Below are positions 2,277 to 25,237 of a stretch of DNA of 64,000 nt, in pieces (positions within the stretch are counted from its first letter, which is position 1; each line of letters opens with the position of its first letter). The stretch lies in NCBI GenBank assembly GCA_900318265.1, contig ONKA01000003.1, forward strand, positions 62,001 to 126,000. Direction: 5' to 3'. The position numbers and the translations under genes were made by a program. The notes beneath the pieces are model-generated. The model was given only the letters and a program-made list of their open reading frames with translations. It made no database searches and was not told where the DNA came from. The stretch comes from an uncultured Bacteroidales bacterium. GTDB taxonomy: Bacteria; Bacteroidota; Bacteroidia; Bacteroidales; F082.

Positions 2277-3752
2277 ATGAAAACCACCCTGAACACCTTA
2301 AAACACACGAATGAAGAAGCCTTGTTCTTTGGAATTCCCGTCATGTGCGACAAATCAAGCAGACAAGGTTTTAAAACACTCATAGCAAAACTGTTTTTCA
2401 ATCCTCAAATTACTCCCGAACATGTCATACGTTACTTGGACCAACTGCAGAGAGGAATCATTTCGGTGGACCGGCTTTTGAAACTCATCGACAAAGGTAT
2501 GCAAGCCCCCCTTCTCTATCGGTCGTCAGAATCCGACCTTTCCGAACTCATGCATGACAAAATCCAGGATTGGACAAATACGTTCGGTGAACTATCTGCA
2601 TCCGACTGGGCTTATCTTGAAAATAACTACAATATCAACCGTCAATTGTTGGTAGTTGAAGAAAACAAAACGCCACAAACTGACTTTCACAGCCCAAAAG
2701 AAATGGCAATGTTTGTTAAAGAAAGAGTATATGGTCAGGACAAGGCTATCGATATGCTTTCGGTTCCTTTCTTCCAACAGTATGAAAGTAAAAGGCGCGG
2801 AAAGCCTTGTTTGATTAAAACTCCCGTTCTATTGATTGGTCCCACAGGGTCGGGTAAAAGCGCTATCTTTCAAGGATACGCTCGTTGTAGCAAATGCATA
2901 ATCGTTCCAATCAACTCAAGTGAGATTTCGGGAACCCAGTGGAAAGGAATGCACATGACAGATGTAATCCTTCGTACCATCAAAGATAAACATGGCCCAA
3001 AGTTTAAGAATATTGTTGGCAGAGACAATGTTATCAATGAATATATCTGCGTATTATTAGATGAGGTGGACAAAATAACTCATCACAATCAAAAACTTGC
3101 AAGTAGTTCTGGAACAGACTTTTACACCGATATTATGTGTGATTTGATGAGAGCGTTAAATCCAGGTGAATATTTGTTTTTGGATGATGGATTCAACCCA
3201 GATGGCTCACCCAAAGGCTATAAAATTCCTGTCGACAATATCTTGATAGTGTTCGCTGGTGCTTTTAGCGGTATCGAAGATGTTGTAAGAAAGAGATTGC
3301 ATCTCAATAAGTCTATCGGCTTTTCCCAAGCGTCTTCTTCCTCTACGAGTATAGATGCTTTGTTGAATCAAGTTACTCCAGAAGACCTTATCGAATGGGG
3401 CTTTATGCCCGAATTGATTGGTCGTATTGGTAACATCTGCGCTTTGAATTCTCTCACACCAGATTTGATTTACAATATCATGACTAATGCCAAGGATAAC
3501 ATTCTGCAATCTCACATCGATTATTGCCACCAGTACAATATCGATCTTCATTTCACCCCAGAGGCCTTGCATTTGATTGCCGATGCTGCTTACAAATCTG
3601 GCTTGGGATTTCGTAACGTCAAGACGTTGCTCTCCAAGTGCCTGAATCCAATATACTATGAATTCCGTGATGAGTCAGCTAAAACAGCCATGCGAACTGT
3701 CAATATCGACCATGACTTCATCGCCAAACAACTCAATTTACTCACCAAATAA
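2277..3752 (+). CDS. ClpX-like AAA+ unfoldase without zinc finger
   Basis: 491 residues. A helical N-terminal region (about 1-140) without the ClpX Cys4 zinc finger is followed by an AAA+ module. The module contains VYGQDKAI (about 153-160), Walker A GPTGSGKS (about 188-195), Walker B CVLLDEVDK (about 258-266), the ClpX-like stretch GFMPELIGRIG (about 375-385) and a sensor-2-like GLGFRNVK (about 441). Typical ClpX feeds substrates to ClpP. No clpP is nearby and the zinc-binding adaptor domain is absent, so this is a specialised paralogue, not the housekeeping gene. It starts the accessory operon, 11 bases before the SecB-like gene, which suggests joint handling of an unfolded substrate. The ATG at 2277 is the first start after an AT-rich leader and fits the domain start. 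Confidence 0.8.
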   Translation: MKTTLNTLKHTNEEALFFGIPVMCDKSSRQGFKTLIAKLFFNPQITPEHVIRYLDQLQRGIISVDRLLKLIDKGMQAPLLYRSSESDLSELMHDKIQDWTNTFGELSASDWAYLENNYNINRQLLVVEENKTPQTDFHSPKEMAMFVKERVYGQDKAIDMLSVPFFQQYESKRRGKPCLIKTPVLLIGPTGSGKSAIFQGYARCSKCIIVPINSSEISGTQWKGMHMTDVILRTIKDKHGPKFKNIVGRDNVINEYICVLLDEVDKITHHNQKLASSSGTDFYTDIMCDLMRALNPGEYLFLDDGFNPDGSPKGYKIPVDNILIVFAGAFSGIEDVVRKRLHLNKSIGFSQASSSSTSIDALLNQVTPEDLIEWGFMPELIGRIGNICALNSLTPDLIYNIMTNAKDNILQSHIDYCHQYNIDLHFTPEALHLIADAAYKSGLGFRNVKTLLSKCLNPIYYEFRDESAKTAMRTVNIDHDFIAKQLNLLTK

Positions 3753-3763
3753 TATTTACAGCC

Positions 3764-4927
3764 ATGACACCTCCATTTTTTATTGCTAAATCATTCGTAA
3801 CAAGCATTGCTTTTGATGTTGCCGAATCTGCCCAGTTGTCACCCAATCCCATTTTGCCCACCGAGACGAGCCTACATGTTGAAATCGGGACAAGAAACTC
3901 TGAAAACAATATGTGCCACCTTGTGGAAATGCAACTGCATATTTCTTCAAACGCTGAAGATGGCTCTTCCGTTTACAATCTTCTCCTTGGTTATTCCGCT
4001 GTCGTTGGTTCGTTTGATTCCTTTATCACTGAAACAGAATGGTATGATATCCTTAAGGTGCAGGTGCCACATGCCCTTTTGGATAACATTCGCACCATCG
4101 TTTATCAAGTGACACGTGATGCCGGTGTTCCCTTCATGATGCGCGATGACACCTTTGACAATCCAATACGAAACGACGAGGCAGAATCTCCTGATCCGCC
4201 ATACAGCGGTAGTGATATCGTCAACGATTTTCCTGAAATTGACGCGGAGTTTCCTGAATTCGAGCAAGGTGTCTATAATCTCTTTGACGCATTCAGTCAA
4301 GACACCTCTAATGAACTGGAATCTGAGAAAATCGATTTTCAGTGGATGATTAACTTCCGTTGGGCTGAAGAAGATATGGAATTGTTGGAAGCAGTCCGAA
4401 ATTTTTGGGAGCTATATTCAAGTCATGCTGGTGATGAACCTATTAAAGATTATGAATCTCTGCCAATCTATAAATGCTACTATTGCTTTTTCACTCCAAT
4501 CAAATATCTCCATCCCGATCTCGAGGAGTGTGACGAATCCATTTGGCCCATCTTGTTCCAAATGTTGTATGGGAGTTTCAAGTCACAATGTCAGGTGATT
4601 GACGATGAGCATGGCCTTCCAGAAATTGAGTTCTCCTATGAAAATTTTCAAGATAGAACTATCTCTAGTCTGACACTCGAAGAGTTGAAAGAACTGCTTT
4701 CTGATCTTATCACGGAAGCATTGGTCAACCTTTCTGTCAATTTACTTGGCTATCAGAACGAAAGTGTTTTGTCAGAGGAACAATCGCAAAACAATAAATT
4801 GTTGTCGGAGCAGGACTTTTATCGCATTTTTGATGCCAATGTGTCTGACGAAAACGCCTCTTTCTTGGGAATGATGTACGAAAAGATAAAAGAATGTAAC
4901 CTACAAACACTTTTGTATCAATCCTGA
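3764..4927 (+). CDS. Protein with a SecB-like N-terminal domain and unknown C-terminal half
   Basis: 387 residues. About residues 1-135 read like a SecB chaperone fold. An ISSNAEDGSSVYNLLLGYS-type strand pair is followed by EWYDILKVQVPHALLDNIR and RDAGVPFMMRDDTFDNP, matching in order the family's helix after the sheet (PNILFPYAR...) and its G-x-PP-x-x-L-x-x-v-x-F ending. SecB holds preproteins unfolded for export; SecB-like proteins also act as chaperones in toxin-antitoxin-chaperone modules. An acidic linker (about 140-185) and an unrecognised, mostly helical acidic region (190-387) follow. Position directly after a ClpX-like unfoldase supports a proteostasis role. The domain call is by eye and moderate; the C-terminal half is unknown. 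Confidence 0.5.
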   Translation: MTPPFFIAKSFVTSIAFDVAESAQLSPNPILPTETSLHVEIGTRNSENNMCHLVEMQLHISSNAEDGSSVYNLLLGYSAVVGSFDSFITETEWYDILKVQVPHALLDNIRTIVYQVTRDAGVPFMMRDDTFDNPIRNDEAESPDPPYSGSDIVNDFPEIDAEFPEFEQGVYNLFDAFSQDTSNELESEKIDFQWMINFRWAEEDMELLEAVRNFWELYSSHAGDEPIKDYESLPIYKCYYCFFTPIKYLHPDLEECDESIWPILFQMLYGSFKSQCQVIDDEHGLPEIEFSYENFQDRTISSLTLEELKELLSDLITEALVNLSVNLLGYQNESVLSEEQSQNNKLLSEQDFYRIFDANVSDENASFLGMMYEKIKECNLQTLLYQS

Positions 4928-4939
4928 TAGGATAATTTG

Positions 4940-4947
4940 TATTTTTG
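4940..4947 (+). promoter_or_regulatory. Bacteroidota -7 promoter box
   Basis: TATTTTTG followed by CG lies 28 bases before the ATG of the receiver-domain gene and fits the TAnnTTTG -7 consensus. A good -33 TTG at the usual distance is not visible. Confidence 0.5.
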
Positions 4948-4975
4948 CGCGAAATAACATAAAAATAAAAATCCT

Positions 4976-7138
4976 ATGGAAAAGAATTATATAGTTTGTT
5001 GGAATAAACCAAGTGCAAACACCATCCAGGATGCTTTCAAAAGCATCAATGATGCTGCTAATCAAAAAATCGAACAGATTAAAAATCACGAAAGTGCTGT
5101 GAAAAAGCATTTTGATGCTTTAATCAAAATCAAAGAGAATGAAGATTCTGAACAGATTCATTTAGAATATATTATTAAAAACACGCCTGGCAATATAAAA
5201 CAGGATTCATTGTTCGAAAGCATAAAGGAAGAGTTTTGGAACTCCAAAAGTACTACTATTTCTACACTCAAAGCAATAGTTGAAAAACAGGAAAAACAAC
5301 GTAAAAAGATACTGATTTCAGAGGTTGCCACTTATAAATATGAGATCTGCACCAGTTTCAACAAATTTCAAAAACGGATCAACGACCATACTCTGCCTAT
5401 TGATGGCATAGTTGTGCTTTGCGAATTAAGCTGGAACCATGAAACCTCTAACGCTCAACCCACAGAATATGCCGGAATAACTCTTGTGCAGCAATTCATC
5501 AGATACGAAAAAAGGATAAAAGCTCCCGTTGTTTTCACTTCGTATGACCCGAAAAAAAGAATTCTTAAAACACGACCCGATGCCACAATAATTTCAACGA
5601 CAGCGTTACAGCATAAGTTCGTGCCGTTCAAACTGTCGAATGTAAAAAGTTTATTGGACGCTTTTGACGGTATGGACTATATGAAAAGCGACAAACAATT
5701 GGATTTCACTATCGAACAATATTGCGACACCTTAGGCATGTTGAGGCAGATTAAACATCGCTCCCGCAGTTGCTCCGAAGATGAAAAGCAAATGTTCAGA
5801 GAACAACTAAAATATGCAATTAAATTAGAGTTTGGCAACGATGATGTGCTGCTGAAAGAGGCCGAAAACCCAAGCACGGACTTACAAGAGTTTAGCCTAA
5901 GTCTTATCAACAAGCTTGAACAACAACAAAAATCCAATGGTCAAAAGATTGTTAGTGATTACACTTGCGAGTCCGTAAAAGACCAAATCTCAATCCTTTT
6001 CCTCGAAGACAATGAGAATGACGAGTACTCAAACCGTTTTGTTGACTATATTGTTAGAATGAACGAAGAAAAAGCCTTAAACGGACAAGTGTTTTTATTC
6101 AGGGAACCTTTTGTTGTTAGAAATGCGGCCCAATTCTTTGGGATGCTGGAGGTGACTCAGTTTAAAGTTGTCATTTGCGACATTGAAATATGGGACAATG
6201 ATGAACTGGTAGCTCTTGGCTTCGATGTCATTGAAGAAGCAAGATGGAGGCAAACTTCTCCCACCTTGTATTATATCGCAACAAATGTGACACGAAGCCT
6301 GCACTCTCGTCTCAAAGGTTATTACAATGACAGCCTGAAAGACATACGCTTGAAAGAAGACATTTTTGCTACCGACGAGTCAATCGACAAATTCCTTTAC
6401 GGCATAAAAGAAGCTTACCAGAAAAGTACTACGGATTTGGCCCAATTGCCGTCATATTGTCTAACATTCAAAGACATGTATAAGTATGTGAAAGCAGTCG
6501 GAAACTATGATGGTAATATACAATTGAAAGCCTTGAAAGACAAGGCTCCTTATGCTTATCCCATAAATAATTACAGGGATATGGAAGACACCGTCAAAAT
6601 GGCTTCAATGGAATTAATAAGATATTTCCTTAAAGAAAGTGCAATGCTGTACCACAAAGACTGGAATTCCTATGATAAAGTCTGTACCAGAACAAGAAAC
6701 TATATTGTAAAATACATTGGATTAGGCAACAACAGAAGCGATATGGCCGAAAGGCTCGCCAAAGGCGAACAGCTGAATCCAACAGACATCAAAAACATTG
6801 TGAGGAGGCTGATACTAAGAAGATTTTTCTTATATGGAAGGCTTTTCGTCAAACATTATAAAGTCAAGGGACAACTCATTGAAACCGATAGCAGCATTGA
6901 GGACAAAAAATTCTATGATGAGGATTTGGTCTGCAGGGCAATTAGTGCCGAATATAGAGGCGCTCACAACCAATCCAAATGCTTAGAAGCTCCTTTGCAT
7001 TATTCTGTTGACATAGATGACAGTATTCAACTTACCGACGAGGAGAAATCCTTTATTAAAGCCATTGAAAAGAAGGGGATTGATGCCTTCGATTATTCAT
7101 CAGAGAAAAGAATAACTCAATTGAGCTTTGATTACTAA
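4976..7138 (+). CDS. Protein with two response-regulator receiver-like domains
   Basis: 720 residues. A charged helical N-terminus (about 1-110) precedes a degenerate receiver-like domain (about 110-245: IDGIVVLCELSW, GITLVQQFIRYEK, APVVFTSYD), in which Glu replaces the usual phospho-accepting Asp. A second receiver-like domain (about 335-480) has the expected acidic pair (FLEDN), candidate phospho-Asp (VVICDIEIWD, about 400), Thr (YIATNVT) and Lys (RLKEDIF). The C-terminal 230 residues are helical and unrecognised, with no DNA-binding output domain seen. A phosphorelay partner is available two genes downstream in the histidine-kinase-type ATPase at 8472. It may relay phosphate or act as a protein-protein switch. 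Receiver calls rest on motif order; the second is the stronger. Confidence 0.55.
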   Translation: MEKNYIVCWNKPSANTIQDAFKSINDAANQKIEQIKNHESAVKKHFDALIKIKENEDSEQIHLEYIIKNTPGNIKQDSLFESIKEEFWNSKSTTISTLKAIVEKQEKQRKKILISEVATYKYEICTSFNKFQKRINDHTLPIDGIVVLCELSWNHETSNAQPTEYAGITLVQQFIRYEKRIKAPVVFTSYDPKKRILKTRPDATIISTTALQHKFVPFKLSNVKSLLDAFDGMDYMKSDKQLDFTIEQYCDTLGMLRQIKHRSRSCSEDEKQMFREQLKYAIKLEFGNDDVLLKEAENPSTDLQEFSLSLINKLEQQQKSNGQKIVSDYTCESVKDQISILFLEDNENDEYSNRFVDYIVRMNEEKALNGQVFLFREPFVVRNAAQFFGMLEVTQFKVVICDIEIWDNDELVALGFDVIEEARWRQTSPTLYYIATNVTRSLHSRLKGYYNDSLKDIRLKEDIFATDESIDKFLYGIKEAYQKSTTDLAQLPSYCLTFKDMYKYVKAVGNYDGNIQLKALKDKAPYAYPINNYRDMEDTVKMASMELIRYFLKESAMLYHKDWNSYDKVCTRTRNYIVKYIGLGNNRSDMAERLAKGEQLNPTDIKNIVRRLILRRFFLYGRLFVKHYKVKGQLIETDSSIEDKKFYDEDLVCRAISAEYRGAHNQSKCLEAPLHYSVDIDDSIQLTDEEKSFIKAIEKKGIDAFDYSSEKRITQLSFDY

Positions 7139-7181
7139 ATTACACTAAACGTTACACTAACCCCATAAACGACCAAGTACT

Positions 7182-7189
7182 TACCTTTG
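7182..7189 (+). promoter_or_regulatory. Bacteroidota -7 promoter box
   Basis: TACCTTTG, an exact TAnnTTTG match, lies in the 94-base gap upstream of the WG-repeat gene. A -33 TTG at the ideal distance is not clear. Confidence 0.45.
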
Positions 7190-7232
7190 TGCCTGTAGTT
7201 CACGAAGTATTAACAACAAAATCATTAAAACA

Positions 7233-8456
7233 ATGAAACTCAAAACGAAGCGCACAATGTTAATCATCAAAAAGTACTCTTATGTCGTATGGTGTGGCAT
7301 TATCCTCTTTTTCGTAGGTTATGGCCTCTCTATGGCTGTTGATTGGGGCATCGAAAAATACGATGAGATTAAAACGAGGAAGGCTGGCAATTTCCTGACA
7401 GAAACCCTAAACACCCGTGAAGCTAAAAATGGTAGGGTTGAAATCTACAACAAAAAGCTGAAGAAAGTTGTAGGATGCTACGACCATGTTTTTGCCCAAG
7501 ATTATGGCGGCTCTTTGACCGAAATCATCCTTAATTCCAGTGAAGGTTCTGTCATGGTGTGCAATGACAGCCTCTATGGATATATTGATCCAGTTTCTGG
7601 CAACGTGCTTGTAGAGCCTCAGTATATCATGGCATGGGAAAGCGATCCAATTAGTGGGCTGGCCGCATGTGTCAACAATGAATTAAAACTTGGGTTTGTC
7701 AATGTCAAGACCGGACAGGTAGCCATTCCATTTAAGTTTGAAATCGACTCGGCCTACTTCCGCCATGTTTATCGTGAAGATTTTCTATACTTTGACTATG
7801 TCTTCCGAAATGGCTTATCGCTCGTTCCTGGTCCCGCTGGTAAAATCGGAATCATCAATGAGGCAGGTGAAATCGTTGTGCCTATTGAGTACGACGACAT
7901 CGAAATCAAAGACTTTGGCAATCCAAGTCGTTTATGGTATGACGATTGGTGTGAGTCTATTTCGCCGGGTGTGTTACATCGCGACTATGATAATAGTTAT
8001 GATTTTGAACAACCCATTATCCTCGAAAAACGCGACTCAATAGGGATTCCCCATCATGGTGTATTTGACAAGAAAGGGAACATGAATGTCCCTGTCATAT
8101 ATGACCAGATGGCCTTCGTTGACACATACGACAAAGTGTTGATCCTATGTCAAAAAGATGGCGTTTTGCGAGGTTTAGATCAAAACGGAAACCTCTTGGA
8201 CGATATCTGTTATTACAGTGACTGTGCCTACGCAGAAAATGTCTCCGTACTCAGGGATCCAGAAGAGAATTTGTCGCCTTACATCCAGTACCGTGCATTA
8301 AACGGATATGCAGTGATGGATACCGATTTCAGAGTGGTTGTAATGCCAAACGATTATTGGGATATTCAATACCTTGGAAATGGCAACTTTGCCTGCGAAA
8401 CCAGCGAGAATTATAGTGTCGTTTTAAAGGATGATAAGTTTAATCAGTTAAAATAG
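7233..8456 (+). CDS. Membrane-anchored WG-repeat protein
   Basis: 407 residues. A single hydrophobic segment (about residues 13-35) follows a positively charged start, with no cleavage site seen, so the bulk should lie outside the inner membrane as a type II membrane protein. About residues 100-320 hold WG-type repeats, recognised by recurring G-x-I/V-D-x-x-G ... V-P-x-x-Y/F-D units (for example YGYIDPVSGNVLVEPQY, KIGIINEAGEIVVPIEYDD, GVFDKKGNMNVPVIYDQ). WG repeats form beta-rich sensor or scaffold domains common in Bacteroidota. It lies between the receiver-domain gene and the kinase-like gene, so an envelope-sensing role feeding that pair is possible, but this is inference. It ends 15 bases before the next gene. 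Confidence 0.65.
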   Translation: MKLKTKRTMLIIKKYSYVVWCGIILFFVGYGLSMAVDWGIEKYDEIKTRKAGNFLTETLNTREAKNGRVEIYNKKLKKVVGCYDHVFAQDYGGSLTEIILNSSEGSVMVCNDSLYGYIDPVSGNVLVEPQYIMAWESDPISGLAACVNNELKLGFVNVKTGQVAIPFKFEIDSAYFRHVYREDFLYFDYVFRNGLSLVPGPAGKIGIINEAGEIVVPIEYDDIEIKDFGNPSRLWYDDWCESISPGVLHRDYDNSYDFEQPIILEKRDSIGIPHHGVFDKKGNMNVPVIYDQMAFVDTYDKVLILCQKDGVLRGLDQNGNLLDDICYYSDCAYAENVSVLRDPEENLSPYIQYRALNGYAVMDTDFRVVVMPNDYWDIQYLGNGNFACETSENYSVVLKDDKFNQLK

Positions 8457-8471
8457 AATTCAATATAATAA

Positions 8472-11400
8472 ATGATGAGTAAGGATTTCATAGTTGAAGA
8501 TTTAAGAGGAAAAAAAGATGCAGCAGCTGATCTTAGAATTGTATTTCGTTCAGGATTTGTCATTCGATCAAAGTTTGCATTGCTCCTCACCCTAAACGCC
8601 GAAACGAACGAAGCGTCTGTATGCGGTTTTGAAAGCAATTATTTTATGACAGACCTTGTTATTCCTAAAAAGGTAATGGGTTATACTATCAAAAGCATAA
8701 ATGCAAATGCTTTCAGGCTCTGTCCAAGTCTCCGTACTGTAATAATACCTGATTCAGTAACAACTATTGAAGATTATGCCTTTTATGAATGTGTTAGCAT
8801 GACTTCTATAACAATTCCTAATTCGGTGACAAAGATTGGTAAAGGCGTTTTTAAGAAGTGTTACGCTCTAAAATCTATCCTCACGGATAATCCATCTTTA
8901 CTGGAGGAAGCTGAGGCATCGGAAAATGTTGTGATTGATAATCAGTACTTTGTCAAATTGATGGAGTTATTCGAACAAAACGCTGACAAGCCAAACAACC
9001 CTCAAGTTGTTAAGCTGGCACAAAGCATCGCTTTTAGTCCTGTTATTTTTGATTTTGCTGATGGAATTAACAAAATTGAGAATGTCAAGGATTTTAATGA
9101 TGTGTTGCTGAAATCAATGATTGCAAATCAATCAGTCTTAAATGCATGTGATTTCGGCTTCGTCAAATACCTCCATATCTTTAATCATGCTGGTGTAAAT
9201 GACATAGGAAAGATAAACATCTATTTCGACTACTCCAATAATACAATATCTCTTGACAAAGGGGAAAATGGTGCTAACAACAAAGTGTTTGATGATAAAT
9301 CGCTGATTTTTTTAACTAAGACGGATGTTGGTATTATGGGTGGAGGTATAGTGGAATACTATGATTCTACTGCCAATAGGGTATTGGAGCCAGACTACTA
9401 TCCCGTCGTTTCACTAGGTAGCAATCGTCAATGCCAACCTTCAGATTTCTTAAAGCATTGGTTTCGACCTGAAAAAGAAGATTTAGATAAGGCAACAGCT
9501 CACCTAATATCATTGGAAAAATTTGTCAAAGAAGAAGGTATTACTAATGTTTTTTACATCGGCAACTATAGAGAAGATTTGGATAGTACGGATCCTGACA
9601 GAGATTACCCATTGTGGGCAAATGTAGGTATCGACTGTTCTGACGTTAAAGATAAAAACTGTGTAAAAGCTTTCCTCGAACAATTACGAAAATTTTTACA
9701 TCGTATTTCTGTGCAGATACAATTTGGCATTAGGAGGCTTGCACTTAGGGAAATAGCAGTTCGTTCCGCCATAGGACAAGTAAGCAGCAGAAACTTTAGC
9801 CACAACTTTGGCTCACACGTATTTAGTAAGTTAATGGGAAATGATACTTACGAGAACATTGTGAATTTAGCCTCAAATAATGCCTATATCTCATGCTACG
9901 ACCAAATGGAAATAAAAAGCGGTGAGCAACTTGCCGGTTTCCTTCAGTACGTAAAAAGCCGTATGGATTATTTATCGGAGCTTACTTTTGGCGTTTCAAA
10001 TATATTAGCTTCAAAAACCATCTATGGTGATGTCTTCAGAGAGTTGGACCGTGTAAGGCTGTTACTCAATCACATTTCTGGCGTATCAAGTTTCAAGTAT
10101 AAGTTTTGTTTAAAGTATAACGGCGAGCAGATGGGGAAAGAAAACGATGTTGTTGTGGCTTTCCCAAGTGATGTTTTGGGAAGTCAAGCCCTATATAACA
10201 TACTCGAAAACATCATCCGCAATACGGCCAAACATGCCAGGAGAGATGAAGTCAAAAGTGGATGTGAAACATTTACCATTGAGTTTTCTGATAGTGATTT
10301 ATTCCCGGAATACTATTGCGTTGAAATAGACAATGGGGTTATAGAACCCAATGTTGATGAATTGGTGGATAAGCAAAATGAATATATCAATGATTCAATT
10401 TTAGATGAATCTAACAATCTGCGCACTTACAGCCTTGGCCTGCTTGAAATTGAAGCATCCGCCGCTTTTCTCCGTCAAATCGACATTGCAAAAATCGAAT
10501 CTTTTGAATACCAGTTTGGCGAGGATGATATTGATGAGTATCATAATAGTCTTGGCAATCTCATTATCCTTAAGGCTATCAACAAAAATGGGGCTTTGGG
10601 TTGCCGTTTCTTTTTGCAAAAACCAAAAGAATTTCTTTTTGTTGGTGATGGTTGGGGCAATGACACATCAAGCCAAAAGAAGTTGTTGAATTGTGGTATT
10701 CGAGTCGTTGATTCAGATGAGTTTGTAAAACTGTTGCATAATGGAAAAACATCTTCTCATCAGTTTTTGATTTATAATGACCATGTTTCAAAAGATGCGG
10801 AAATAATGCTATCGGATAGCAATGAAAGTAAGACCCTGTTGCCGCTTAGGAAGCTTAAGTTCGATGAACAACAGTCAAAAAAGGTGGTGAAAATACTTGA
10901 AATGGCCGACAAAAGTGAACTTGTGCGTCAATTGAAAGCAATGGCTTGGAACCATTACTATCAAAATGAAATCAAGGAGGACCAAAAAAATCCGGCCAAT
11001 GGTTGCATAGCTATAAATGGCATCGTTGATGCATCGGGCGAAAGCTCCTCTCTGGCTCCTAATCAAATAGCATTTCTTAATCATGCCACAGCTGAAAGGC
11101 ACAAGGAAAACTGGGCCATTGCCCAAAATAATTGCTCGTTTGAAGCATGGGTGGAGAATTTATCAAGCCATTCAAGCGCAAAACTTCCTGAGTTCAATAC
11201 ACTTTCAGTTGGGAAACGCGATGCTATTTCTGATTATTTGAGAAACATAAATTTTAAGGACTGGGAATGGGTAAGGCAAGCCTTGTTTACAGCCTACCAC
11301 GAACGTGTCGTTGTTATTGACGAAAGGATTCAGAATCATTCGAAAAAGCACGAAGGCTCTTCGAATGAAAAAGGAGGACCGATACCAGTCAGTGATCTGT

Positions 11401-11789
11401 ATAAATCTACAAATGTGATCTTCCCCGATCTGGCTACTATGTCACTTGACCCATTACAATATGACGAGGATACAATTAGTAAAATCGAATCTTTTATCGA
11501 TGACAATTGCACTGATGCCCTCTTGTTAATTCACTATGGCGTCTTGGAACGTATGTATAAAAAAGAGTCTATCGTTGAGGAAGTGGCTGCTATTAGGGGC
11601 AAACTAACAGAATGGTCTGAAAAAGCCAAAAGACTGGTTGTTACCAGTGGGCGTGGGTCCCATTCGCTGCCATTGCCTAATTCGGTTTGTTTTGTTGACC
11701 TTTCTTCCGTGTTATATGCGTTCGTCGCAAACAGGAATAAGTATATCATTGATTATTTATTACATCAAGCTAGAAGAAAAAATGGATAA
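8472..11789 (+). CDS. LRR-5/histidine-kinase-type ATPase signalling protein
   Basis: 1105 residues with an unusual architecture. About residues 60-140 are BspA-type leucine-rich repeats (LRTVIIPDSVTTIEDYAFYEC, MTSITIPNSVTKIGKGVFKKC). A helical region leads to a histidine-containing motif SRNFSHNFGSHVF (about 440), a candidate phospho-acceptor helix. A GHKL-type ATPase follows: N-box NILENIIRNTAKHAR (about 577-591) and G-box-like TYSLGLLEIEAS (about 652-663). The last 380 residues are unrecognised, with hydrophobic strands VVVIDERIQ (about 944), ALLLIHYGVLERM (about 1016) and RLVVTSGRGSHSLP (about 1054) that look like a Rossmann-like domain. No membrane segment is seen, so the protein is cytoplasmic. 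Its likely partner is the receiver protein at 4976. Kinase activity is inferred, not shown. The next gene overlaps it by eight bases, which implies coupled translation. Confidence 0.6.
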   Translation: MMSKDFIVEDLRGKKDAAADLRIVFRSGFVIRSKFALLLTLNAETNEASVCGFESNYFMTDLVIPKKVMGYTIKSINANAFRLCPSLRTVIIPDSVTTIEDYAFYECVSMTSITIPNSVTKIGKGVFKKCYALKSILTDNPSLLEEAEASENVVIDNQYFVKLMELFEQNADKPNNPQVVKLAQSIAFSPVIFDFADGINKIENVKDFNDVLLKSMIANQSVLNACDFGFVKYLHIFNHAGVNDIGKINIYFDYSNNTISLDKGENGANNKVFDDKSLIFLTKTDVGIMGGGIVEYYDSTANRVLEPDYYPVVSLGSNRQCQPSDFLKHWFRPEKEDLDKATAHLISLEKFVKEEGITNVFYIGNYREDLDSTDPDRDYPLWANVGIDCSDVKDKNCVKAFLEQLRKFLHRISVQIQFGIRRLALREIAVRSAIGQVSSRNFSHNFGSHVFSKLMGNDTYENIVNLASNNAYISCYDQMEIKSGEQLAGFLQYVKSRMDYLSELTFGVSNILASKTIYGDVFRELDRVRLLLNHISGVSSFKYKFCLKYNGEQMGKENDVVVAFPSDVLGSQALYNILENIIRNTAKHARRDEVKSGCETFTIEFSDSDLFPEYYCVEIDNGVIEPNVDELVDKQNEYINDSILDESNNLRTYSLGLLEIEASAAFLRQIDIAKIESFEYQFGEDDIDEYHNSLGNLIILKAINKNGALGCRFFLQKPKEFLFVGDGWGNDTSSQKKLLNCGIRVVDSDEFVKLLHNGKTSSHQFLIYNDHVSKDAEIMLSDSNESKTLLPLRKLKFDEQQSKKVVKILEMADKSELVRQLKAMAWNHYYQNEIKEDQKNPANGCIAINGIVDASGESSSLAPNQIAFLNHATAERHKENWAIAQNNCSFEAWVENLSSHSSAKLPEFNTLSVGKRDAISDYLRNINFKDWEWVRQALFTAYHERVVVIDERIQNHSKKHEGSSNEKGGPIPVSDLYKSTNVIFPDLATMSLDPLQYDEDTISKIESFIDDNCTDALLLIHYGVLERMYKKESIVEEVAAIRGKLTEWSEKAKRLVVTSGRGSHSLPLPNSVCFVDLSSVLYAFVANRNKYIIDYLLHQARRKNG

Positions 11790-12447
11790 AAAAGTATTAG
11801 TATTTACCAATTATGGAAGCTGGTTCCGAGGTCTTCCTGAAATCACGAAAAGGGTTGACTGGTACGATTCTTACCCGGAAATAAGCAACCCCTTAGTAAA
11901 ATGTGTGTCAGAGCCAGGAGCTGAAACAACACTTCAGCCTGTTAATAATCTGTCAGCCGAAGGAGTCTATCTTGTGTTTGACGAAATCAGCCAAAATATG
12001 TTGGCGACATTGCTTGATGAGTGTACTCAAAATAACGACAGATTGTTCATCCTTTTACATACCAGAGGCTATTATACCGATTCAAAAGATTTCGAATCTT
12101 GGCAAAAAAATTGTTCCTTCGCGAAAGGAATGCACGAATCTGGTATCAAAAACAAATACGAACCCGTATTTGACATTCTTACCGACAAGTTAGGCGATGA
12201 GCTAAACCGAATCATCAATTCCATTTTCATGCCTTTGGATAACGCCATTAACACCTTCCTTGATGAATGTGCCGAACCAAAGAAAAAACTCGAGAACTTG
12301 CTTTCGTATCACATCCTATGCGAAGAAGGCTTCAAAGACGCTATGGAAGCTTTTAGAAACAAGTACGAATCGTGTCAAAACTATCTCGAATATGCGGAAG
12401 AGTGGGATAGGCTTAGAGACCTTTTGAAAAGAGATAATGAAAAATAG
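11782..12447 (+). CDS. Unknown protein translationally coupled to the kinase-like gene
   Basis: 221 residues from the ATG at 11782, which overlaps the end of the preceding gene and follows a purine-rich AGAAGAAAA. Longer in-frame starts exist inside the upstream gene but would add an implausible hydrophobic, cysteine-containing leader. The N-terminal half alternates hydrophobic strands and helices (VLVFTNYGSW, GVYLVFDEIS, RLFILLHTRGYY); the C-terminal half is helical and charged. I recognise no family. Tight coupling to the 1105-residue protein suggests a binding partner or regulator of it. Confidence 0.55.
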   Translation: MDKKVLVFTNYGSWFRGLPEITKRVDWYDSYPEISNPLVKCVSEPGAETTLQPVNNLSAEGVYLVFDEISQNMLATLLDECTQNNDRLFILLHTRGYYTDSKDFESWQKNCSFAKGMHESGIKNKYEPVFDILTDKLGDELNRIINSIFMPLDNAINTFLDECAEPKKKLENLLSYHILCEEGFKDAMEAFRNKYESCQNYLEYAEEWDRLRDLLKRDNEK

Positions 12448-12449
12448 TG

Positions 12450-12457
12450 TATTTTTG
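12450..12457 (+). promoter_or_regulatory. Bacteroidota promoter before the radical SAM gene
   Basis: TATTTTTG followed by CAG is a consensus -7 box; a TTG at 12424-12426 is a possible -33 element (23-base gap, slightly long). It overlaps the stop of the upstream gene and argues that the radical SAM gene starts at 12483 or later, not at the GTG at 12447. Confidence 0.6.
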
Positions 12458-12482
12458 CAGTCCTAAACAACGAGCCAATACA

Positions 12483-13796
12483 ATGCTGTTGAACACTGAT
12501 ATAATGGTAAAGGGATTTATCGCTTCAAGATACAATGTCTTGTGTACAACGGAAAACGGTATCGTTCTCCTATACAACCTATTGTACAAACAATTGGTTG
12601 AACTGGATAACGAAGACCTTGCCGTAATTGAGCGCGGTTCCATTGATCCCGAAACAGAGATGGGTCGGTTGTTGGTGGATATGAGATATGTCATCCCAGA
12701 ATCTGCGAACGAGTTGGATTATTATAAGTTCCATTATAACAGGTCCCATTTTGATCAATCTGAACTATCTCTGTCCATTCTCACATCTTTGGCATGTAAT
12801 TTGTCATGCCCCTACTGCTACGAAAACAAAAACGGTTTGAGCATGAAGGTAACCACTGCAGATCAAGTCAAAGATTGGGTTGTCAACAACCTTGACGGGA
12901 AACGTATGCTTTCCGTCAACTGGTTTGGGGGCGAACCTCTTCTTAACGTGAAGAGCATTGAAATGCTGTCCGAGGCTTTTATTGCTCATTGCAGTGCTTC
13001 CCATATTGATTATCAAGCTGGCATTACCACTAATGGGTGCCTGTTAAGCCCCGAAGTGGTTGAAGCATTGGAGAGATGCCAGGTGTTCAATGTGCAGGTC
13101 ACTTTCGACGGGTCTAAGGACTTCCACAACAGAATGAAGCATTTTTCAAATGGAGAGGGGTCGTATAACAGGATTGTAGAGAACATCGTGTATTACTGCA
13201 CCCATTCCAAGAGCCATTCCCCTTTGAGAATAAGGGTGAATCTGTCAGATGAGAACTATGAATCCATCGAGACCCTGCTGAATGAGTTGCCGGAGGTGGT
13301 AAAAGAGCATTCCTCCATCTTCTTCAGATGGATTTATTCCACAGAGACATCTGGATGGAAAGAATTCTCGAAGAAAAAAGCGGGAAATTCTCCCTACAAA
13401 GGTATCTTTACACTGATTAAAATGGCGCATGAAAAGGGGTATCATGTTGAAAATAGGTGTGAAACGGTAGACTTCCGCTTTTGCGAGGCCGACAATCCAG
13501 GGTACTACACCATTGACCCTTTAGGGAATATTTATCTGTGCGTCCACGACTACAAGCCGGAAGTCTCGGTTGGCCATGTGCGCGATGGGATTCATCTTTC
13601 AAAAGAGTCACAATACTTGGCCTTTAGAAACGTATCGGTGTTGGACGATAACGAATGTATGCAATGCAAGGTGCTGCCAATATGTAATGGCGGCTGTCGG
13701 AAGTTCAGGTTAGAAGGCAAAAAACAGTGCATCTTCGAAAAAGACAACCTGGATCTTTATGTAGAGAATATTTACCATAGAAATACAATTGTTTAA
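12483..13796 (+). CDS. Radical SAM/SPASM peptide-maturase-like enzyme
   Basis: 437 residues. The radical SAM cluster motif CNLSCPYC (about 106-113) binds the [4Fe-4S] that cleaves S-adenosylmethionine. NWFGGEPLL (about 140) is the usual SAM-binding GGEP loop. A C-terminal SPASM region carries spaced cysteines, including CMQCKVLPICNGGC (about 393-406), for auxiliary clusters. Enzymes of this build typically modify ribosomally made peptides (thioether or C-C crosslinks) or activate sulfatases in trans. No sulfatase is near, and a 53-residue Cys-containing ORF follows 18 bases later, so peptide maturation is the leading idea. The N-terminal 90 residues may act as peptide-binding region. The ATG at 12504 is an alternative start. 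An upstream GTG frame is excluded by the promoter. Confidence 0.8.
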   Translation: MLLNTDIMVKGFIASRYNVLCTTENGIVLLYNLLYKQLVELDNEDLAVIERGSIDPETEMGRLLVDMRYVIPESANELDYYKFHYNRSHFDQSELSLSILTSLACNLSCPYCYENKNGLSMKVTTADQVKDWVVNNLDGKRMLSVNWFGGEPLLNVKSIEMLSEAFIAHCSASHIDYQAGITTNGCLLSPEVVEALERCQVFNVQVTFDGSKDFHNRMKHFSNGEGSYNRIVENIVYYCTHSKSHSPLRIRVNLSDENYESIETLLNELPEVVKEHSSIFFRWIYSTETSGWKEFSKKKAGNSPYKGIFTLIKMAHEKGYHVENRCETVDFRFCEADNPGYYTIDPLGNIYLCVHDYKPEVSVGHVRDGIHLSKESQYLAFRNVSVLDDNECMQCKVLPICNGGCRKFRLEGKKQCIFEKDNLDLYVENIYHRNTIV

Positions 13797-13814
13797 TTCA
13801 TAAAACTGAGAAGA

Positions 13815-13976
13815 ATGAGAGTCATCAAATCAAATCAATCACTGCAGGGCCGTTACACCCAAGGGCAACGACATCTTTGCCCAAATGTAACGACAACAAG
13901 CATTGGTCGAACTATCGATTTTGGAACTAGAATTGCTCCCGATAGGTATGTTTGCTCTTGCATATCCGAAAAATAA
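13815..13976 (+). CDS. 53-residue peptide, candidate substrate of the upstream radical SAM enzyme
   Basis: A short ORF with an ATG 18 bases after the maturase stop. It begins MRVIKSNQSLQGRYTQGQ, is basic, and contains LCPNVTTTSIGRT in the middle and a YVCSCISEK end. Cysteines are at positions 22, 47 and 49. Size, position and Cys/Thr/Ser-rich second half fit a RiPP precursor with leader and core, but no known leader motif (double-glycine, for example) is seen, and no peptidase or transporter specific for it is adjacent. It may instead be a non-translated stretch. It ends eight bases before the next small gene, consistent with a continuous operon. Confidence 0.35.
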   Translation: MRVIKSNQSLQGRYTQGQRHLCPNVTTTSIGRTIDFGTRIAPDRYVCSCISEK

Positions 13977-13984
13977 AGAAGATA

Positions 13985-14152
13985 ATGGAAGAACAAAAAA
14001 GAAAATGTAAGTGGTGTGGCTGCTACTTTTCTTTAAGTGTCCTGAGATTTGGCGATTATTGTAGCCCCGCCTGCTATTATCAAGCCAAGCAGGCTGAAAA
14101 GGCTCATCGAAAAAGCCAACAAGAGAATAAAAGGGAAGACCAACAAAGTTGA
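13985..14152 (+). CDS. 55-residue zinc-ribbon protein
   Basis: Starting at the ATG at 13985, the peptide has a CKWC pair (about 8-11) and a YCSPAC pair (about 26-31), the spacing of a small zinc ribbon, followed by a charged helical tail rich in Lys, Gln and Glu. Such proteins occur as adaptors or nucleic-acid binders. It is the last gene before the terminator at 14217. An upstream TTG extension is unlikely. Function unknown. Confidence 0.55.
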   Translation: MEEQKRKCKWCGCYFSLSVLRFGDYCSPACYYQAKQAEKAHRKSQQENKREDQQS

Positions 14153-14216: not shown

Positions 14217-14257
14217 AAGAAACGGCGACCTGCATGGGTTGCCGTTTCTTTGTTTTT
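14217..14257 (+). terminator. Strong Rho-independent terminator ending the first accessory operon
   Basis: Fourteen-base arms (AAGAAACGGCGACC and GGTTGCCGTTTCTT, one G-T pair) around a short TGCATG-type loop, followed by TGTTTTT. It separates the operon at 2277-14152 from the FtsK-like unit. Confidence 0.85.
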
Positions 14258-14383: not shown

Positions 14384-14416
14384 CGGTTCATTAATTTATT
14401 TAATAATTCTCGTAGT

Positions 14417-14716
14417 ATGCCTAGAATTACATCCTATCATGCTCAATTAGAATTGGCCGAAGAATTGAAGAAGTATCTTAATGGTCTTCAGGAGAGACTT
14501 GATGTTGTCATTCATCACTTTGAACAGGAAGCCGGCAAACTGTATGATGCTGGCATGATGGATGAAACCTTTAATGATTTTGTGAATAATTACATGAATG
14601 AGACCAACAATAAAATCAGGTCGGTAATTGATATTGTTAATGGAAGGGATATTCCTTTCGTTGACGACTACATTGGGAGATTGGAAGAGTTAATCGCAAG
14701 GTATGGTAATGCATAA
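14417..14716 (+). CDS. 99-residue helical protein of WXG100-like size
   Basis: The sequence is almost wholly helical and amphipathic in two blocks: QLELAEELKKYLNGLQERL ... HHFEQEAGKL and FNDFVNNYMNETNNKIRSV ... YIGRLEELIARYG. They are separated by a DAGMMDE turn. Size, helical hairpin layout and position directly before an FtsK/SpoIIIE-type ATPase resemble ESX/WXG100 proteins of type VII-like systems, but the diagnostic W-x-G is not present (YDAG occupies that place). It could equally be an unrelated coiled-coil partner of the ATPase. Start chosen from the promoter position. Confidence 0.5.
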   Translation: MPRITSYHAQLELAEELKKYLNGLQERLDVVIHHFEQEAGKLYDAGMMDETFNDFVNNYMNETNNKIRSVIDIVNGRDIPFVDDYIGRLEELIARYGNA

Positions 14717-14724
14717 TTAAGACC

Positions 14725-16476
14725 ATGTTTGAAGAGTATTTACTAAATCATCTACACTCAGAGTCCAACACCGTTCTCCCCGATATGTTACGTGTTGGAA
14801 GTTTCAATCGCGCGGGCGCCAAAATTCCCGTGTTTCTGCCATTTCTTACCGCTAATGGGATTTGCTATATCACAAACGATGACCTAGACCGAAAAGCTAT
14901 CCAGCAGATGCAGTATATGGCGTTGGAACTGACGAAATATATGGATCCAGAACTGCTCTCTTTAAAGTTTGTTGATGTTGGACTTAATACCAGATATCCT
15001 ATCCTTTCAGCCATAAAGTCTTCGCAATTTACCTTTATTACAAGTCGCGACAGGTTGAATGAAGAATTGGATGCCATCATTGAAAGGGCTCGCTATATCT
15101 CTAATGAGTGCATCGGATACCAGTATTCTGATTTAGAATCATATAACACCAATAATCCCGATCTCAAAGAAGCATATGTTGTATTTTTCATTTCATGCTT
15201 TCCCAGAGATTTTGATGACTCAATGTTCTCAAAACTGTCTCTCATTATTAGAGAAGGAAAGAAATGCGGGATTCGTGTTGTCATGAACATGTCGCTTCGC
15301 GAGTGGAATGGCGGAACATACCAGTCTGCAGCCAAGAGGGTCTTGTACAACGACATAAATTCTTTTCTGATACAGATTGATTGTACCAATCCTAAGAACG
15401 CACTTCACAAATGTGGCTATGGCATATACAACCGTTTTGCAACAAAATATGAATTTGGATTTGACGAATACTCTTCTTCTGAAATTCATAGTGTTGTCTC
15501 TTCGTTAAAAGAGAGTATTCCTATCAATGAGGATGTTAAAGATTTCCTTTGTCTTCCTATTGGAAAGAGTGGCAGAAACACTATCCATCTCGAGATGGGT
15601 CTCAAATCTGGCATTTATCATGGGTTTATTGCCGGCCAAAGCGGAAGCGGCAAAACCAATTTGCTTCACAATATTATCACATCTATTGCGAAATACTATT
15701 CACCCGATGATTTGCGCTTGTATTTGTTAGATTACAAGTGGGGTATTGAATTTCAAGTATATGAGAATCACCCCAATGTCGAGTACCTTCTTCTGGATAA
15801 TGAAAACATCGAGTCGGGCATTAACTTACTTAAAGAATTACGAAAAGAGTTTGTGATCCGTTCTAATGAATTTATGCGTTTAGGAAAGACAATCAATAAT
15901 ATTGACGAGTATAACAAAAAAGCCGCTAAAAAGATGCCACACATACTGGTAATTATAGACGAAGTACAGCAACTGTTCTCGTCCTTTGCCATAAAAAGGG
16001 AGGTAAATCCGATTCTCAAAGAGGTGGCTAAGCAGGGACGGGCTTTCGGTGTCCATCTTTTGTTCAGTACCCAGTCATATGCCCAGTGTGATATCGACAG
16101 TGACACATTAAGCCAAATGCCATTACGTATCGCATTTGCATTATCGTCAGGGGCAGAATGCCGTGCCATAATGGGTCTGGACAACGATGCGCCAATGTCA
16201 TTACCGCCCTATTCTGCCATTTATAACAAACGCAATGGTGACAAAAAATACAACACCATTGTAAAAATTGACTATTTTGACAAGGATACAATCCAAAATG
16301 TCTTATATGAAGCCGAGAGGAAGTTCAGAGGTTATACGCCATTTAAAAAACGGGTTATTCGCCATTCTGAAAGAGAGACAACGACAGCAGACAAAACACA
16401 TCATAGTAGTCCATCTGGTGTGGTTCATCGGCCCGAATATGACAATGTGGATTATGAAAAAATGTTTGGATTCTAA
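14725..16476 (+). CDS. FtsK/SpoIIIE-type ATPase with a degenerate first motor domain
   Basis: 583 residues. The C-terminal half is an active-looking FtsK-type motor: Walker A GQSGSGKTN (about 303-311), RLYLLDYKWGIEF, Walker B ILVIIDEVQQLF (about 407-418), the KQGRAFGVHLLFSTQS helix-strand and a final SLPPYSAIY-like segment. The N-terminal 270 residues look like a second, degenerate copy without Walker A (LKEAYVVFFISCF ... IREGKKCGIRVVMNMS parallels the motor's Walker B and following helix). No membrane segment or DNA-orienting gamma domain is seen, unlike chromosomal FtsK. Tandem motors with one inactive unit are known from type VII secretion EssC/EccC. Gene order (helical 99-mer, ATPase, tail-anchored protein, exported proteins) makes protein export a plausible role. 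The family is certain; the substrate is unknown. Confidence 0.75.
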   Translation: MFEEYLLNHLHSESNTVLPDMLRVGSFNRAGAKIPVFLPFLTANGICYITNDDLDRKAIQQMQYMALELTKYMDPELLSLKFVDVGLNTRYPILSAIKSSQFTFITSRDRLNEELDAIIERARYISNECIGYQYSDLESYNTNNPDLKEAYVVFFISCFPRDFDDSMFSKLSLIIREGKKCGIRVVMNMSLREWNGGTYQSAAKRVLYNDINSFLIQIDCTNPKNALHKCGYGIYNRFATKYEFGFDEYSSSEIHSVVSSLKESIPINEDVKDFLCLPIGKSGRNTIHLEMGLKSGIYHGFIAGQSGSGKTNLLHNIITSIAKYYSPDDLRLYLLDYKWGIEFQVYENHPNVEYLLLDNENIESGINLLKELRKEFVIRSNEFMRLGKTINNIDEYNKKAAKKMPHILVIIDEVQQLFSSFAIKREVNPILKEVAKQGRAFGVHLLFSTQSYAQCDIDSDTLSQMPLRIAFALSSGAECRAIMGLDNDAPMSLPPYSAIYNKRNGDKKYNTIVKIDYFDKDTIQNVLYEAERKFRGYTPFKKRVIRHSERETTTADKTHHSSPSGVVHRPEYDNVDYEKMFGF

Positions 16477-16502
16477 AAATGGTTAACCAAAAATAAGGAG
16501 AT

Positions 16503-17075
16503 ATGCAGAATCGTTTTGATGATTATCTAAGGCAAATGCAAAATCTGGAGCAGAGCGACAATAAAAACACCCTCAGTTCATTCTGCACTTTAAATAAAGC
16601 AACGCTGTCCTATTTTAAGGGTATCTGGGAGCCTCTTCAGACTATGCTTTGCTCTTCCAATATTGATATTAACTTCATTAGTAAAATAGAAAGCATTCTT
16701 GGCCAATTAGATGATATCAAAGACAGATATGAGTCGTTGAAGAATAATGCAAGTAGAGAGTATAAAGACGATATCAAAATGTTCCAAAAACAGATAGACT
16801 CAATTACTTATCTGAATTGGACAACTGTTAGTTCTAGGCTTAAAAGCCTTGAAGACAATAATCGCAAGGCATTGCTCTCCTCTGCGGCCCCCAAACCAGC
16901 CCCATCGCCTCGTCCAGTTCCATCGCCTCGTCCAGCTCCCGCGCAAGGAAATCCAAATATCCATGTATATCACCCTGGTGATTTGGATAATAAAGGCAAA
17001 TCATCAGGCTGTTTTTGGTGGTTTATTCTTTTACTCCTGATAGGAGGAGGTGTTGTATATATGTTTTTTGTATAA
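16503..17075 (+). CDS. Tail-anchored coiled-coil protein with proline-rich linker
   Basis: 190 residues. A helical coiled-coil-prone region (about 1-125) is followed by a Pro-rich linker with a repeated PSPRP unit (encoded by two near-identical 18-bp repeats around 16902-16937). A short NIHVYHPGD segment follows, then a single C-terminal membrane segment (CFWWFILLLLIGGGVVYMFF). It has no signal peptide, so the N-terminal part faces the cytoplasm. It may anchor the upstream FtsK-like ATPase, which itself lacks membrane segments, to the inner membrane. It ends two bases before the next start. No family recognised. Confidence 0.55.
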   Translation: MQNRFDDYLRQMQNLEQSDNKNTLSSFCTLNKATLSYFKGIWEPLQTMLCSSNIDINFISKIESILGQLDDIKDRYESLKNNASREYKDDIKMFQKQIDSITYLNWTTVSSRLKSLEDNNRKALLSSAAPKPAPSPRPVPSPRPAPAQGNPNIHVYHPGDLDNKGKSSGCFWWFILLLLIGGGVVYMFFV

Positions 17076-22718: not shown

Positions 22719-22762
22719 AAGGCCCAATATATTTTCTTATCAAACCACAAAAACAAACAGCT

Positions 22763-23707
22763 ATGAAAACACGCAAGGAAAACACTCGCGAAAAAGCCAA
22801 TAGCCCAGCGTACGGTATCATCTCGTTTACTAGTAAATCAGAAGCCAGGGCGTATTTGGAAACGAGTTTCAAGAAAGGCACTACTGAAGATGCATTCGAA
22901 ATCGTGGAACGTATAAAAGATTATGCAAAACATGGTGATTCAAGATGGCTGTATCTTTTGGGATTATGCTATTATGTCGGATATGGAAACGATGAGGATC
23001 CGCACAAGGCTTTGAAATGTTGGAGCAAGGCGGCCGGAAAAGGTGAACATTGCTCACAGTATGCTCTTGGTAGCGGCTATTACTATGGAACTGCTATGCG
23101 TAAAAATTATAAAAAAGCTTGCTTCTGGCTTGAAAAAGCTGCTCATCAAGATAATTGCGGAGCACAAGCCTTGCTTGCTGACTGCTATCATTTTGGTCAG
23201 GGCGTCGCTAAAAACCAGAAAACCGCTGTTTATTGGTATGGAAAGGCAGCCGAACAAGGCCATGCGAATGCCCAATTCATGCTTGGACTTTTTTATTATT
23301 ATGGTGAAAACGAAGTTCGTAAGAACTATAAAAGGGCGTTTCAGTATTTTACGATGGCAAGTGATATGGGTCATGTTGGAGCCATCAACCAGCTCCAAAA
23401 ATGTTACGCGGAGGGTAAAGGTACAAAAAAGGATTCCCATAAAGCGCTTGAATTGTTTCGTATCATGCTAAATAACCAAAAGGATAATCAAGAGGAACAC
23501 ACTTCCGTTTCGGATTCCGACAACAAAACCGTTCATTCGCCATCAGTAAACGACGAGGATCGGATATCCATGTTTTTCGACATGCTCGACAATAGTATGG
23601 ATATAGTTAAAATGATTGAAAAGAAAGAAAAGAAAAAGCGGGATTCGTCAAGGGCTGGTGTGGAGGAAATAATTGTTGATTTGATATGGAAGCGTTTGCG
23701 GGATTGA
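22763..23707 (+). CDS. Sel1-repeat protein
   Basis: 314 residues. About residues 70-235 hold five Sel1-like repeats with the usual A-x-Y-x-L-G-x-x-Y-Y-x-G ... A-x-x-W-x-x-K-A-A pattern (for example YLLGLCYYVGYG, SQYALGSGYYYG, AQALLADCYHFGQG, AQFMLGLFYYYGE). Such repeats mediate protein-protein contacts in signalling and effector regulation. No signal peptide; a charged tail of about 75 residues ends in a Lys-rich helix. A related, broken Sel1 gene lies at 26103. Cytoplasmic scaffold likely. Confidence 0.75.
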   Translation: MKTRKENTREKANSPAYGIISFTSKSEARAYLETSFKKGTTEDAFEIVERIKDYAKHGDSRWLYLLGLCYYVGYGNDEDPHKALKCWSKAAGKGEHCSQYALGSGYYYGTAMRKNYKKACFWLEKAAHQDNCGAQALLADCYHFGQGVAKNQKTAVYWYGKAAEQGHANAQFMLGLFYYYGENEVRKNYKRAFQYFTMASDMGHVGAINQLQKCYAEGKGTKKDSHKALELFRIMLNNQKDNQEEHTSVSDSDNKTVHSPSVNDEDRISMFFDMLDNSMDIVKMIEKKEKKKRDSSRAGVEEIIVDLIWKRLRD

Positions 23708-23734
23708 GAACTCCACACAAACAGTTTCCTCGCG

Positions 23735-23778: not shown

Positions 23779-23841
23779 ACATAATTGATTGTCAAACCTC
23801 AAAAACATATCTCAAGATTAGCTTTTGAAAAAACGCAAAGT

Positions 23842-25232: not shown

Positions 25233-25237
25233 GATTG

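Follow-up and report, generated by a model that had tools for sequence, protein, structure and literature searches.

What brings a ClpX-like unfoldase, a SecB-like chaperone, receiver and kinase-like proteins and a radical SAM enzyme together in one bacterial operon? The question is raised by nine genes at positions 2277-14152 of a 64,000-nucleotide stretch of DNA (the window) from an uncultured Bacteroidales bacterium. The window lies on contig 18 of an assembly of 50 contigs that is 89% complete, and the bacterium has mostly uncultured Bacteroidales as relatives. The initial annotation saw nine genes on one strand with short gaps, one overlap and a terminator at 14217, all of which we found where they had been placed, and suggested a stress- or phage-responsive phosphorelay controlling the unfolding and export of a modified peptide or protein. 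We find a core of five genes, joined by parts that can be exchanged, and not a fixed nine-gene system. The core comprises the genes for the ClpX-like protein, the SecB-like protein, a receiver protein, a histidine-kinase-like protein and a protein of 221 amino acids (aa). Our favored reading, to which we assign a probability of roughly 45%, is a signal-gated unfoldase, in which a phosphorelay would gate an alternative unfoldase of the ClpX type, partnered for substrates by the SecB-like protein and perhaps acting on ClpP.

Recurrence and mosaic structure of the core

In the taxonomic family, 5 of the 172 other genomes have the receiver gene. Four of the five (G520, G472, G483 and G515) share the order clpX-like, secB-like, receiver, WG or leucine-rich repeat (LRR) gene, kinase and 221-aa gene, with the kinase doubled in G483. 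The whole set, WG and radical SAM genes included, is present in a further Bacteroidales genome, isolate RUG12969 (locus L059), and all core parts are found rearranged in Parabacteroides sp. PF5-9 (L063). There, one strand has the receiver, a PDZ-WG protein, the kinase and the small gene, along with two radical SAM genes of other kinds, whereas a 170-aa SecB (Pfam 1.5e-29, 103.2 bits) and a ClpX-like protein are encoded on the opposite strand. The recurrence of gene order in other Bacteroidota, proposed earlier as a check, is thus borne out. A chance assembly of independent genes at a recombination hotspot, as the variation of neighboring cassettes between relatives might suggest, is an extremely improbable explanation because the order recurs elsewhere, with the five-gene order shared by distant contexts and a ClpX/SecB pair kept at all six strong places described below.

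Recombination between relatives has shuffled genes and has even separated the two halves of clpX. Identity between L058 (in G515) and L064 is 96% for clpX, 54% for secB, 38% for the receiver and 44% for the kinase; between the window and L059 it is 90% for secB, 81% for WG, 62% for clpX and 52% for the kinase. Residues 1-100 of the window clpX product are 96-100% identical to L059 and 48-54% to L058. The part beyond the first 100 residues is 78-94% identical to L058 and 26-72% to L059, with a recombination breakpoint near residue 100-120. The ClpX N-domain and SecB agree between the window and L059 (96-100% and 90%), but their tracking each other as a rule was rejected because L058 and L064 disagree (N-domain about 90%, SecB 54%). 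The window and L059 also share a left flank of 88% and a right flank of 95% DNA identity with a different cassette between them, and the operon of L060 abuts a region found at 22741-26075 in the window (97%). The locus is an exchange-prone island, and the cluster is patchily distributed in Bacteroidales.

The intergenic gaps in cluster order are 11, 48, 94, 15, -8, 35, 18 and 8 bases (Table 1). Scanning for terminators found 17 sites, compared with 9.1 (standard deviation 3.5) in shuffles; one is a second terminator-like stem at 2060-2092, behind the gene upstream of the cluster. Promoter sites were uninformative since their count (36) was close to that in shuffles (33.1). The GC content is 0.397 in the operon and 0.435 in the window.

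Table 1. Features of the cluster, in window coordinates
Feature	Position	Strand	Basis
ClpX-like AAA+ unfoldase, 491 aa	2277-3752	+	NCBIfam ClpX match, motifs
SecB-like protein, 387 aa; N-terminal SecB part and C-terminal domain	3764-4927	+	Pfam SecB
Receiver protein, 720 aa; degenerate receiver-like part, canonical receiver, helical C-terminus	4976-7138	+	Residues
WG-repeat protein, 407 aa; N-terminal hydrophobic segment (optional)	7233-8456	+	WG 3.6e-10
BspA-type LRR and GHKL histidine-kinase-like protein, 1105 aa	8472-11789	+	LRR match, motifs
221-aa protein behind the kinase; 8-base overlap with the kinase gene	11782-12447	+	
Radical SAM/SPASM protein, 437 aa (optional)	12483-13796	+	Radical_SAM 1.6e-13
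Conserved 53-aa open reading frame; candidate peptide substrate for the radical SAM protein	13815-13976	+	Conservation, pN/pS
55-aa Cys-rich (zinc-ribbon-like) protein	13985-14152	+	One relative only
Terminator-like stem-loop, 15 pairs, T run	14217-14250	+	Terminator scan

The ClpX-like and SecB-like genes form a separate unit

The ClpX-like protein matches the NCBIfam ClpX model at E 1.7e-44, and profile matches equally confirmed the earlier calls of WG repeats and a radical SAM enzyme. It shares the AAA+ core and motifs of ClpX, but its zinc-binding N-terminus is replaced, it falls far short of the ClpX equivalog cut-offs (152.4 bits against 359; 132.3 against 370.75), and the genome has a housekeeping ClpX of its own adjoining the gene for ClpP. 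Walker A lies at residues 188-194. Walker A, the Walker B Glu, the arginine finger and sensor 2 are kept in 10 of 10 aligned ClpX-like proteins, and we assume that these motifs have their customary roles. The tripeptide [IVL]GF, presumably the site where ClpX docks ClpP, is found in 9 of the 12 ClpX-like proteins read (IGF at 347-349 in the window protein) and is missing in L085, L130 and L131. Matches in PHROGs are to phage families of unknown function (best 3.4e-25) at the superfamily level only, and PADLOC gives only weak DolB and AriA matches.

The SecB-like fold of the initial annotation is upheld in part. Against a Pfam SecB cut-off of 26 bits, the protein scores 27.1 in the genome search but 24.2 in the operon scan, and it stays below the NCBIfam SecB cut-offs. 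Its gene is the sole SecB match in this incomplete genome. The C-terminal domain also stands alone beside other ClpX-like genes.

A SecB-like profile search of 393 genomes of the order gave matches in 7. Every strong SecB-like place at E < 1e-10 (six of six: G000, G025, G142, G231 and two in G227) is directly preceded by a ClpX-like gene, a count in which four places were query rows, G231 and the second G227 place were new, and two weak places in G070 and G262 (E 2.8e-5 and 1.1e-4) are left out. The pair occurs in five kinds of context. It stands with the kinase family in G000 and on contig 278 of G227; beside Pkinase, PP2C, VWA and tubulin-like genes on contig 267 of G227, where the tubulin match is below its cut-off; beside a PP2C gene in G025; beside the gene of an LRR_5 protein in G142; and beside a WG protein gene in G231, with a STAND/TPR-like gene nearby. 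No kinase with the RNxSHNxGSHV-type box described below was seen in the stretch read at the pairs with PP2C, VWA, LRR or WG neighbors. The ClpX-like and SecB-like genes are a separate two-gene unit attached to other signaling genes. A second signaling platform that uses this pair is seen at L130:1402-10506, where Pkinase, PP2C, VWA and tubulin-like genes adjoin a pair of ClpX-like and SecB-C-like genes.

The receiver protein and the kinase family

Two receiver-like domains had been proposed for the 720-aa protein. The second is canonical, with the acidic residue, phosphoacceptor Asp, Thr/Ser and Lys of a two-component receiver (D345, D402, T436 and K460 in the window). D345, D402 and K460 are kept in 14 of 14 members of the BLAST cluster and T/S436 in 13 of 14, with one Ala. 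The first is degenerate: an iREC match appears at E 0.018 in one of six members, and a profile comparison of the two parts gives 8.9% probability. Foldseek matches of the receiver model at E > 0.001 include structures of PleD, KdpE, CheY and RcsB as well as PorX. Searching the sequences of solved structures with the kinase and receiver profiles gave 0 matches.

The window kinase has a BspA-type LRR (E 7.3e-19) at about residues 56-138, an H-box RNFSHNFGSHV, an N-box NIIRNTAK and two C-terminal domains. Of 49 kinase open reading frames (ORFs), 40 carry the box RNxSHNxGSHV, or a close form, ahead of the N-box; three of the other nine have it in the preceding ORF. The kinase model has four Foldseek matches at E <= 0.001, three of them histidine kinases (best E 5.6e-4). 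The GHKL ATPase with a His motif that had been proposed is thus backed by motifs and weak structural matches, but not by a Pfam match in the window protein.

A scan of 84,980 species genomes with the kinase family returned 48 loci, including several genomes of the taxonomic family. They include Bacteroidota, TM6, Elusimicrobia, Lentisphaerota, Kiritimatiellota, Verrucomicrobiota, Calditrichota, Fibrobacterota and one Desulfobulbaceae. The family is found in 4 of 395 genomes of a random phylum sample, own genome counted, and the own genome has a single copy. The full 1105-aa query matched 130 of 393 genomes of the order, swamped by the LRR, and among the matches listed only G227, G336 and G329, beyond the own genome, reached the kinase part. 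Of 44 readable cases, 30 have an ORF of 150-360 aa directly behind the kinase; two more are at contig ends. Homology of the 221-aa protein to the C-terminal domain of the kinase was rejected (profile comparison, 0.3% probability).

ClpX-like genes (E < 1e-60) accompany 9 of the 48 kinase-family loci. On a quick tree of 49 rows, in which long branches are present, the ClpX label requires 5 changes (starred branches force at least 4 of them), compared with 10.2 in shuffles, none of 500 of which was as low as 5. ClpX-like genes are clustered on the kinase tree but have been gained or lost more than once.

Other kinase-family loci combine further parts. The operons L052:211-11381 and L069:8255-21498 each encode a tyrosine-decarboxylase protein as well as a tyrosyl-tRNA synthetase (Pfam tests covered the decarboxylase in L052 and the synthetase in L069), with Liv-type transporter genes upstream in L069. 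By our own reading of the sequence, the decarboxylase protein may end in a putative receiver. In L074 a receiver is fused to a HerA/TrwB-like ATPase, and L076 includes a TCAD9-domain protein.

Optional cargo

Four parts around the core are optional cargo: the WG protein, the radical SAM protein, the 53-aa peptide and the 55-aa protein. The radical SAM protein matches SPASM weakly in Pfam (0.0071) and passes the general SPASM model TIGR04085. It is nearest to peptide maturases (best profile 5.8e-65), below the maturase cut-offs shown, and matches phrog_1802 in PHROGs at 5.4e-39, at the superfamily level only. Membership in pVip (PADLOC 2.3e-11) was rejected because the peptide-maturase profiles score far better. 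The radical SAM gene is 90-92% identical in L058 and L059. The 53-aa ORF directly behind it is 89% and 60% identical in these two relatives, and ratios of nonsynonymous to synonymous polymorphism (pN/pS) of 0.15 and 0.29 show it to be under purifying selection, a candidate substrate peptide. The 55-aa protein is 65% identical in L058 and has no match in L059.

A conserved peptide behind a maturase, together with the other radical SAM genes of the Parabacteroides locus L063, could indicate a regulated cluster for a ribosomally synthesized and post-translationally modified peptide, which the unfoldase, chaperone and relay would serve in processing. We regard this as decidedly improbable, given that G520, G472 and G483 carry the core without this radical SAM gene and that the operon has neither an exporter nor a protease. 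Export of a modified peptide, as suggested initially, is likewise unsupported, as the operon lacks an exporter and this radical SAM gene and peptide occur together in three loci only.

Relation to known systems

The initial annotation knew of no named system with this set of genes, and none emerged from PADLOC scans of the operon or from the literature searched, in which we recognized no paper describing it and outside which most subscription papers lie. PADLOC at E 0.1 gave no match for the SecB-like, receiver, WG, kinase and 221-aa proteins, the inclusion of Detocs models in its release being unconfirmed. In Detocs, a defensive two-component system, one operon joins histidine kinase and receiver proteins to a separate output (PMC11728103, PMC11249213). 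By description only, kinase, receiver and separate output share an operon here too. The Detocs output is an ATP-cleaving PNP, whereas here it would be the ClpX-like/SecB-like pair, and the kinase has an LRR.

Clusters of kinase, PP2C and VWA genes of the TerY-P type and vWA-MoxR ternary conflict systems (PMC7159879) offer another comparison. The likeness is an AAA+ ATPase beside phosphorylation genes. At L130 the ClpX/SecB pair sits within such a kinase, PP2C and VWA cluster, and the kinase-family locus L076 has the TCAD9 protein. However, the AAA+ protein here is ClpX-like and not MoxR, and Pfam gave no VWA, PP2C or Ser/Thr kinase match in the window operon.

The mycobacterial toxin-antitoxin-chaperone (TAC) system has one antitoxin segment on which both a SecB-like chaperone and ClpXP act (PMC8165232). 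It offers a precedent for a functional SecB-like/ClpXP link, and the SecB profile match is shared here. A comparable module, in which the SecB-like protein shields and the ClpX-like protein degrades a labile regulator (the 221-aa protein or the receiver) such that imbalance frees a toxic activity, appears improbable: no toxin or antitoxin family was matched among the operon proteins in Pfam, PADLOC or NCBIfam, and the module has no known substrate. The SecB-like protein here also has about twice the length, and its C-terminal domain is known from proteins that lack the SecB part.

Defense genes and other neighbors

A phage-responsive role, as initially suggested, is not supported: it would rest on a few defense genes among neighbors considered with no background control, and no relatives of the kinase were found in viral contigs or in plasmid or phage records. 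In a defense-gene scan, 5 of 10 neighbor proteins matched at E <= 1e-4, one of them weakly (3.5e-5); as the ten were hand-picked and had no control, we make no claim of defense-island enrichment. The defense genes HmaB and HmaC lie about 3 kb upstream of the kinase-family operon at L066:503-12756 in a Saprospiraceae genome, and AbiEii lies near the receiver gene of L063.

Behind the terminator, a small operon of its own at 14414-17072 (+) encodes a 100-aa protein, an FtsK/SpoIIIE-like ATPase whose nearest profiles are EssC/EccC and PADLOC SspH, and a 190-aa protein that ends in a hydrophobic tail. In L059, DNA matches are found for both flanks of this stretch but not for the stretch itself. 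Among the glycosyltransferase-like genes at 27876-36566 (+), two near-identical GNAT-type genes (31625 and 33892) flank a second radical SAM gene (32539-33813), and a KptA/Tpt1 gene lies at 35979. BrxL (PADLOC E 4.8e-168), 23 kb downstream of the operon, is encoded together with a 202-aa protein and a 988-aa transglycosylase/transpeptidase penicillin-binding protein at 37709-42757 (-). No other BREX gene was noticed among the window ORFs read, and no systematic BREX search was made.

A proposed signal-gated unfoldase and its alternatives

We suggest the following scheme. The LRR part of the kinase (a separate LRR protein in one relative) would detect a ligand, upon which the kinase might autophosphorylate on the histidine of the RNxSHNxGSHV box. 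The phosphate would then pass to D402 of the receiver protein, with the 221-aa protein possibly assisting or buffering the relay. Once phosphorylated, the receiver might free or direct the ClpX-like ring. The ring, supplied by the SecB-like protein, would unfold chosen proteins, perhaps into the ClpP of the cell. Cargo such as the WG protein or the radical SAM protein with its 53-aa peptide could add lineage-specific input or output. Our inferences are that phosphate is transferred, that the receiver controls the unfoldase and that the ring docks ClpP; they extend to the choice of substrate and the trigger. The ClpX/SecB unit also occurs next to phosphorylation genes of other kinds, which supports the view of it as the output. 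The phosphorelay with unfolding of the initial annotation is supported insofar as the kinase and a canonical receiver adjoin the unfoldase and the SecB-like chaperone, but as a core of five genes, and with a pair that also lives without the kinase.

Several observations weigh against the signal-gated unfoldase. The coupling between receiver and unfoldase is drawn from adjacency. No ClpX-like gene is present in 39 of the 48 kinase-family loci (some contigs are short) or in the stretch read around the receiver, kinase and small gene of G467, where the opposite strand encodes a 167-aa SecB some 7 kb downstream. G483 has a split clpX frame. ClpP docking is uncertain because the tripeptide is found in only 9 of 12 proteins and the own ClpX of the genome reads IGY at the docking-loop position. 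Pfam gave no convincing receiver match in the 720-aa protein of the window and no kinase match in the window kinase (HATPase_c in one of ten members, E 0.021), and D[NDS]G of the G1 box is found in only 12 of 49 kinase sequences. The AlphaFold models of kinase and receiver are weak (predicted local distance difference test 61 and 62; predicted template modeling (TM) score 0.50 and 0.32). The receiver model has no Foldseek match at E <= 0.001. For the kinase model, superposition is poor in the four best matches (TM to query <= 0.16, large root-mean-square deviation), one of which is an unrelated ribosome-factor complex.

A Liv-type (LivKHMGF) transporter, found in 21 of the 48 kinase-family loci, also speaks against this reading. 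A branched-chain-amino-acid-type ABC transporter with its binding protein, and the lack of relatives in phage, plasmid and viral records, would suit a regulator of signal transduction and proteostasis without a conflict role. Nutrients or envelope stress would then be sensed by the kinase family, with protein quality control adjusted in response. We think this unlikely, as the transporter is found in only one of the nine ClpX-bearing loci and as patchy presence, recombination and an exchangeable LRR suggest diversifying selection. A bolder extension of the signal-gated unfoldase, which we hold as doubtful, is an immune-type receptor system. Exchangeable LRRs on a new histidine-kinase family might switch on a ClpX-type unfoldase or protease with a chaperone-type adaptor, a pair serving several unrelated signaling platforms.

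Two-component signaling is well known, and a ClpX/SecB output would be unusual. If the signal-gated unfoldase is correct, bacteria would wire a two-component relay directly to a protein-unfolding machine, not to transcription. The H-box histidine, D402 and Walker B would then be defined residues for direct testing. The ClpX/SecB pair would be a portable unit that different phosphorylation systems can adopt, and the kinases would represent a family of cytosolic LRR-kinase receptors with visible module swapping.

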